Assembly: GCF_013410215.1 (NCBI RefSeq)
Contig: NZ_JACCFQ010000001.1
Location: forward strand, 2,728,001 to 2,792,000
DNA: 64,000 nucleotides
Direction: 5' to 3'
From: Nesterenkonia sandarakina
GTDB lineage: Bacteria; Actinomycetota; Actinomycetes; Actinomycetales; Micrococcaceae
Shown: in pieces, positions 42,537 to 44,111 of the stretch
Position numbering within the stretch: position 1 is the stretch's first letter
How the letters are laid out: each line of letters opens with the position of its first letter
The notes under the pieces: model-generated
The model's database searches: none
Seen by the model: the letters and a program-made list of their open reading frames with translations, nothing else
Told to the model about the DNA's origin: nothing
Position numbers and translations under genes: made by a program

Positions 42537-44087
42537 TCAGAAGAGTGCCGGCTGCGCCGGCCCCGCCGCGGCGCCAGCGAGTCCACCCTGCGCCGGCACC
42601 GGGGAGTCCGGATCATTGCGTTCCCGCCACATCAGGTCCGCGGGCGCGTCGAAGCCGTGGCGACGCCTGGCCGCGCGCGCCGAGTCAGCCAGCCAGTGCC
42701 GGTACTCCTTGGAGGCATAGGACCCCCCGCCGTAGATCCGGCGATACTTCGCCACCAGCGCCGGATACTCCCTGGCCAGCCACGCCATGAACCACTCCCT
42801 GGCGCCGGGGCGCAGGTGCAGCGCCCCGGTGGTGACGTAGCTGGCTCCGGCTTCGGCCAGCGCGGCATGCAGCGCGTCGATGCGCTCGTCGCCGTCGGTC
42901 AGCCAGGGCAGGATCGGCATGGCCAGCACGGAGCACTCCAGCCCGGCGTCGGTGATCGATCGGATCAGATTCAGCCTCGCCCGCGGGTCAGGTGTTCCCG
43001 GCTCCACCTTCTGCTGCAGCTCAGGATCCAGCACGGCCAGGGACACGGCCACCGAGACGGGCACCTGCTTAGCGGCCTCCTGCAGCAGCGGAAGATCCCG
43101 CTTGAGCAGCGGCCCCTTGGTCAGGATGGAGAACGGCGTCCCGGAGTCTGCGAGCGCCCGGATGATTCCGGGCATCAGCTGGTAGCGGCCCTCGGCGCGC
43201 TGGTAGGGATCGGTGTTGGTCCCCAGCGCCACGTGTTCGCGCTTCCAGGAGGGCCGGTGCAGCTCGGCGCGCAGCACCTCAGCGACATTGGTCTTCACGA
43301 TGATCTGGGTGTCGAAGTCGCGTCCTGCGTCGAGGTCGAGGTACTCGTGGGTCTTCCGCGCGAAGCAGTTGTGGCTCACCACACCGTTGGCGATGAAGTC
43401 ACCGGTGCTGGTGGTGATGTCAATCAGAGATTCACTGCGGCCCAGCGCCTCGATCCCGGTGATCGACAAGGAGTCGCTGGTCTCCACCAGGCTTCCCACG
43501 GGGCTCGCCACAGCTCCTGCGTCCGCCGGCTCCGAATACGACTCAGCAGACATGCCGAGCCCGAAGCCCATGAGTCGGTTGTGGTCCGTCAGAGCTGGAC
43601 GCCGCGCCCCCTCCTCGGAAGGGGCCACATACTTCCAGCCACGCTCTGTCAGGAACCGGTGGTCTCCGCTGGCCACAATTTCTGTGCCGTCACGGAGGGT
43701 GACGTGGAAAGCAGGTTTCTCCGTGCGCCATTTCGCCGACACTTCCGAACGGACGAACCGGCGATACTTGCCATCGAACTCTGTGCCAACGACGGCATCC
43801 CCCACCCTGACATCCCGGAGCAGCTTCTGGCGACCGTCCGCCATCAGAATCAGTGTCTCCGGACTCAGGCAGTACACGCACTGATGCAGGCAGCCCCGGG
43901 TGGGATTCACAGTCCAGGAGAAGGGCATGTTCGACTGACCCGGCACCTTGTTCAGCGCGGTCTTCGCGGCCACCTCGTGGAAAGTCACACCCTCGAACTC
44001 CGGGGTGCGCACCGAGCGCATCAGCCCTTTGAGCGGGATGAGCGCAGCCGCCTCACCCTCCTGCACCGCCTGACCCTGCCACCTCAT
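42537..44087 (-). CDS. Rv2578c-type radical SAM protein interrupted by an intein
   Basis: A 516-residue precursor. Without the intein the host protein is about 348 residues. The [4Fe-4S] motif CLHQCVYC is split: the N-extein ends QCVY at residue 72 and the C-extein begins CFARKTHEYLDLDAG at 241. The SAM domain continues with IIVKTNVAEVL, HVALGTNTDPYQRAEGRYQL and SILTKGPLLKRDLPLL, as in the SplB-like/Rv2578c family. Mature protein needs splicing to form the cluster site. An SOS-type box (44096-44111) precedes the ATG. It probably acts in DNA repair or nucleic-acid modification, but the reaction is unknown. Confidence 0.93.
   Translation of the reverse strand: MRWQGQAVQEGEAAALIPLKGLMRSVRTPEFEGVTFHEVAAKTALNKVPGQSNMPFSWTVNPTRGCLHQCVYCLSPETLILMADGRQKLLRDVRVGDAVVGTEFDGKYRRFVRSEVSAKWRTEKPAFHVTLRDGTEIVASGDHRFLTERGWKYVAPSEEGARRPALTDHNRLMGFGLGMSAESYSEPADAGAVASPVGSLVETSDSLSITGIEALGRSESLIDITTSTGDFIANGVVSHNCFARKTHEYLDLDAGRDFDTQIIVKTNVAEVLRAELHRPSWKREHVALGTNTDPYQRAEGRYQLMPGIIRALADSGTPFSILTKGPLLKRDLPLLQEAAKQVPVSVAVSLAVLDPELQQKVEPGTPDPRARLNLIRSITDAGLECSVLAMPILPWLTDGDERIDALHAALAEAGASYVTTGALHLRPGAREWFMAWLAREYPALVAKYRRIYGGGSYASKEYRHWLADSARAARRRHGFDAPADLMWRERNDPDSPVPAQGGLAGAAAGPAQPALF
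43368..43871 (-). other. Mini-intein (168 residues) in the radical SAM gene
   Basis: Residues 73-240 of the precursor. It begins CLSPETLILMADGRQKLLRD (block A, Cys1), has the block B histidine in TEIVASGDHRFLT, and ends SLIDITTSTGDFIANGVVSHN (blocks F and G), with penultimate His and terminal Asn before Cys+1 of the C-extein. Between blocks B and F there are only about 70 residues, too few for a LAGLIDADG homing endonuclease, so this is a mini-intein. Confidence 0.93.
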
Positions 44088-44095
44088 GGAGCTAT

Positions 44096-44111
44096 TCGAA
44101 CATAGATTCGA
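44096..44111. promoter_or_regulatory. SOS box (LexA site) before the radical SAM gene
   Basis: TCGAAC-ATAG-ATTCGA, one base from the actinobacterial LexA consensus TCGAAC-N4-GTTCGA, 9 bases upstream of ATG 44087. On the minus strand it overlaps TATGTT, a possible -10. Confidence 0.75.

Follow-up and report, generated by a model that had tools for sequence, protein, structure and literature searches.

The locus treated here raises the question of why an actinobacterial gene for a radical SAM protein should carry an intein exactly within the codons of its cluster motif, and whether this position acts as a switch or reflects the history of a mobile element. It lies in a stretch of 64,000 nucleotides of Nesterenkonia sandarakina (contig NZ_JACCFQ010000001.1, positions 2,728,001 to 2,792,000), hereafter the window. 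A sequence-only reading had placed a mini-intein in the motif and proposed that the enzyme cannot bind its [4Fe-4S] cluster until splicing has occurred, which would make a redox- or metal-controlled switch possible. Rv2578c-family genes were taken from many actinobacterial genomes and the cluster motif was located in each of them.

The intein and its insertion site

The features of the gene are given below in window coordinates, (-) denoting the reverse strand.

44097..44110 (-): LexA/SOS-type box CGAATCTATGTTCG, first base 23 nt upstream of the start codon, position conserved across homologues
42537..44087 (-): precursor of an Rv2578c-family radical SAM protein, 516 aa, interrupted by an intein (single open frame; scores of the profiles NF038136 and NF038135)
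43872..44087 (-): N-extein, residues 1-72, ending in GC66LHQC70VY72 with the first two cluster cysteines (intein-free homologues go on here as C-F-A-R)
43368..43871 (-): mini-intein of 168 aa, residues 73-240, Cys1...His-Asn, endonuclease domain lost (homologue alignment; match to the HINT fold in the PDB)
43869..43871 (-): Cys1 of the intein (residue 73), also the residue that completes CX3CX2C in the precursor (Cys1 in 50/50 inteins)
43365..43367 (-): Cys241, the +1 residue for splicing and, once the enzyme is spliced, its third cluster cysteine (translation; homologue comparison)
42537..43367 (-): C-extein, residues 241-516 and stop, the remainder of the enzyme (Pfam Radical_SAM matches residues 278-401)

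The precursor scored 756.5 bits with the NCBIfam model NF038136, 'intein-containing Rv2578c family radical SAM protein' (cut-off 700), 515.7 bits with NF038135, which describes the intein-free Rv2578c family (cut-off 430), and 46 bits with PF04055 Radical_SAM (cut-off 29.5). The suspicion that the site might be known already was borne out, as NF038136 models it and the window precursor lies above the cut-off; the insertion site is catalogued in actinobacteria, and the intein itself is ordinary. Among the papers searched, none deals with the Rv2578c intein.

Homologues without insert show an uninterrupted C-x-x-x-C-x-Y-C-[FY]-[AS]-R, with [YF] overall at the position before the third cysteine, and because they run continuously through the site the 168-aa segment is an insertion, so that the objection that aligned homologues might not reveal it as one falls away. 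In every intein-bearing gene the insert starts after the Tyr and ends in ...HN before the third cysteine; the codon boundary is identical for all 50 extracted inteins, and their flanks are constant (C(x3)C-x-Y before, C-[FY]-A-R after). A second set of homologues, which overlaps the first, gave the same site in Nesterenkonia, Ruania, Blastococcus, Klenkia, Amycolatopsis, Lentzea, Promicromonospora, Pseudonocardia and others, and the search of the family for the insertion point, which had been recommended, returned a single site throughout. The junctions of the window precursor read ...NPTRGC66LHQC70VY72 / C73LSPETL...GVVSH239N240 / C241FARK..., and the boundaries first drawn from the letters, between Tyr72 and Cys241, proved exact to the base. 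Translation and comparison with homologues likewise upheld the view that the intein splits the cluster motif and that the third cluster cysteine, Cys241, is the +1 residue; the CX3CX2C motif of the enzyme after splicing is C66-C70-C241.

Across the 50 inteins at this site Cys1, block B His71, block F Asp151, the penultimate His167 and the terminal Asn168 are invariant, and Cys+1 was found with all 50 at the Rv2578c-family site, which confirms blocks A, B, F and G and the splicing residues as they had been read. The residues of a class 1 intein (Cys1, His167-Asn168 and Cys+1) were present in 50/50, and it is because of Cys1 that the window intein is assigned to class 1. The inserted segment scored above the cut-off of TIGR01445 intein_Nterm, and its AlphaFold model resembles solved inteins (NpuDnaB 4o1r, target-normalised TM 0.81), the matches to 4o1r, 1mi8 and 2in0 at target TM 0.76-0.81 indicating the HINT fold. 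In block B, usually TxxH, intein position 68 (window 43668-43670, reverse strand) is Ser in 49/50 and Gly in one; the Ser (SxDH) appears to be a trait of the family and no defect of the window copy. Intein position 56 is His in the window copy as against Arg in 48/50. Both departures, the Ser where most inteins have Thr and this His, weigh somewhat against the splicing reading. A profile search for LAGLIDADG gave no match in the 168-aa intein of the window. The segment is a real, endonuclease-free mini-intein at a catalogued site and probably active. Splicing of the window precursor, as we infer it, would begin with an N-to-S shift at Cys1, proceed by transthioesterification to Cys241 and then by cyclisation of Asn240, and would yield as ligation product an enzyme with an uninterrupted CX3CX2C.

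The host enzyme and its upstream box

The AlphaFold model of the precursor had a mean pLDDT of 80.5 and its host part matches spore photoproduct lyase (SPL), which was also the best structural match for the model of an intein-free homologue (4fhc, E 1.2e-8, TM 0.52-0.56). By sequence profile no whole-protein match to SPL was obtained, the best match to a solved structure covering 39 profile positions at E 0.015. Because this sequence link is weak the host enzyme is termed SPL-like, not SPL, its predicted fold being nearest to that of SPL. In another genome of the same genus, 62% complete, the host gene is broken by a frame change and a TAG (L064, G075:C1:1393400-1395300).

A 14-base box like CGAACN4GTTCG, a type which we take to be the actinobacterial LexA box, lies 22-24 nt upstream of the start codon, counted from its first base, in nearly all of 105 homologues (L007-L116). 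Within 200 nt upstream, a box with at most one mismatch to this pattern was found in 84 of the 105, compared with 0.7 expected from shuffles, and recA of the window genome has CGAAGATATGTTCG upstream. Genome-wide, single-mismatch matches occur at 152 places per strand versus 97 for a control pattern; as such matches are common, it is the conserved position that counts and not the match alone. The box is present with and without the intein and therefore belongs to the enzyme, not to the intein. Together, the putative LexA-type box and the SPL-like fold indicate that the Rv2578c-family enzyme is probably SOS-induced and point to a DNA-damage-induced, repair-type enzyme as the host of the intein; from its upstream sequences, the family looks like a conserved member of the SOS regulon. 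In PMC9380542 a 'Radical SAM protein' of S. venezuelae, vnz_31145, stands among the LexA targets; this possible member of the family was set aside as a counterpart of the window gene, since its box and position differ.

Mobility and loss of the endonuclease

The inserts are mainly of two sizes, 146-188 aa or 294-352 aa, and the large inserts tested, including relatives of 348 and 349 aa, contain a LAGLIDADG_3 domain with intact-looking motifs, e.g. GYLAGFFDAEG. In the window clade of the intein tree the intein of L040 (348 aa) and the four copies of 168 aa are sister groups, the 352-aa intein of L044 is nearest to two copies of 172 aa, and in a copy of 188 aa (L037) the deletion ends elsewhere. 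The differing deletion junctions suggest that the endonuclease was lost separately at least three times among nine close relatives.

Within the genus the intein is present in 15 of 28 intact host genes and absent from 13, and an extein tree of 106 genes, a sample enriched for intein-bearing ones, requires no fewer than 22 changes between presence and absence. In the intein tree L065, L066, L068, L069 and L071 group together with support (96/95) despite widely separated hosts, and this clade, picked after that tree had been seen, is rejected by the extein data (p-AU 1e-69), which shows horizontal movement of the intein. Intein and extein distances also correlate (rho 0.40), which speaks for vertical descent too. 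Monophyly of the Nesterenkonia inteins is compatible with the data (p-AU 0.45), so that repeated gain and a single gain with repeated loss are inseparable within the genus. Of 38 plasmid records that match the host family none covers 80% of the precursor, so these records offer no plasmid vector for the intein.

A phage record, Virus Rctr197k (KX853510), annotated as 'radical SAM protein-like', matched the intein at 26% identity but was rejected as a second radical SAM case. Read by eye, its gene (KX853510.1, L229 292-3561) seems to encode a helicase-type protein with a large intein of its own, whose junction is without CX3CX2C; the 'radical SAM' annotation probably stems from the intein match.

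In the window clade the intein is kept in 9/9 with no visible loss. In another actinobacterial genus, g144 (L074, L075, L078-L080, L082-L088), a mini-intein of 152 aa occupies the site in 12/12 genomes listed with a complete match, where this endonuclease-free form is apparently fixed. Steady retention in both groups is also what a useful intein would lead one to expect, and it counts against a pure homing view.

The overall pattern fits the normal life cycle of a homing intein. The window element is very probably a self-splicing mini-intein of class 1 that descends, with loss of the endonuclease, from a homing intein aimed at the conserved cluster-motif codons of actinobacterial Rv2578c-family genes; the patchy occurrence, the horizontal movement and the homing endonucleases account for the insertion without any regulatory benefit.

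Cysteines at the junction and possible control of splicing

In all 50 precursors CX3CX2C is retained, in the window as C66-LHQ-C70-VY-C73, with Cys1 of the intein in place of the third cluster cysteine; this results automatically where a Cys1 intein sits before a cysteine. The claim that the enzyme cannot bind its cluster before splicing is therefore unsupported as stated, for the precursor keeps the motif (CLHQCVYC) and may be able to hold metal. Conversely, whatever engages Cys1 would block splicing.

With Cys70 at position -3 and Cys73 as Cys1 the window precursor has the Cys-3/Cys1 pair of the redox-trapped intein of the type known from MoaA, itself a radical SAM enzyme. In the MoaA intein of Pyrococcus abyssi a native Cys-3/Cys1 disulfide is reported by two reviews to control splicing (PMC3922620 and PMC10663303, citing Callahan et al., 2011). 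A working redox switch in the window gene would mean that on oxidation a Cys70/Cys1 disulfide blocks the first splicing step, while reduction lets the oxygen-sensitive enzyme mature. It would agree with this that the pair occurs in all 50 precursors, that an equivalent pair is reported to control the P. abyssi intein, and that the window intein has no cysteine besides Cys1, which leaves Cys1 and the extein cysteines as the partners in any thiol chemistry. However, the enzyme motif dictates Cys-3 and the intein dictates Cys1, and their co-occurrence is therefore no sign of selection and the pair no proof of a selected switch; moreover, 13 of the 28 genes of the genus manage without the intein, and the MoaA intein comes from an anaerobic archaeon whereas the actinobacterial hosts considered here are mostly aerobic. 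By analogy with MoaA, a redox effect is credible and would not be new in kind: oxidation may slow splicing of the window precursor in vitro through a Cys-3/Cys1 disulfide, although we hold this to be less likely than not, and a physiological switch of this type is improbable. What stands of the proposed redox control is its possibility, given a Cys-3/Cys1 pair as reported for MoaA; nothing in the sequence shows its use.

Even less probable is that an Fe-S cluster or Zn, bound via Cys66, Cys70 and the intein Cys1, would hold splicing until the metal is removed: CX3CX2C is intact in the window precursor and in all 50 intein-bearing homologues, but its restoration is automatic once Cys1 replaces Cys+1, and if splicing is fast, a cluster could not be loaded in time.

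When the window copy was compared with its three mini-intein sisters, the splicing part gave a dN/dS of 0.08-0.13 and the extein one of 0.03-0.045, as against 0.30-0.49 for the linker that remains at the former endonuclease position of the same four copies. Judged from these ratios, purifying selection acts on the splicing part, and the pattern of constraint is as expected if the enzyme depends on splicing; it is no evidence of regulation. That the intein is dead and the host gene a pseudogene is scarcely believable, for although mini-inteins can decay and G075 of the same genus has the broken copy described above, the catalytic residues are intact, the frame is open and dN/dS is low in extein and splicing part alike.

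The locus makes a good test case, as a single genus offers natural alleles of the gene that lack an intein, carry a mini-intein or carry a full homing intein; that the splice junction coincides with the cluster motif and that the gene has a LexA-type box adds to this value. The Cys-3/Cys1 redox trap has so far been reported for an archaeal radical SAM enzyme, and the window gene suits a direct test of whether it is relevant in bacteria or a side effect of insertion sites.

Among known systems, the proteins described by NF038136 share host family and insertion site with the window precursor, whose intein has only 168 aa, whereas the 574-position model has a longer intein section (approximately positions 76-334). 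The P. abyssi MoaA intein resembles the window intein in having Cys-3 and Cys1 and in residing in a metal-cluster enzyme; it differs in its archaeal host and enzyme family, and the redox effect was measured in MoaA but is hypothetical for the window intein. Conditional splicing is reported for the mycobacterial SufB and DnaB inteins in PMC6195587, PMC8891592 and PMC7360933. These are actinobacterial like the window intein, but lie in other host proteins and at other sites, and the M. smegmatis DnaB intein, of solved structure (6bs8), belongs to class 3, the window intein to class 1.
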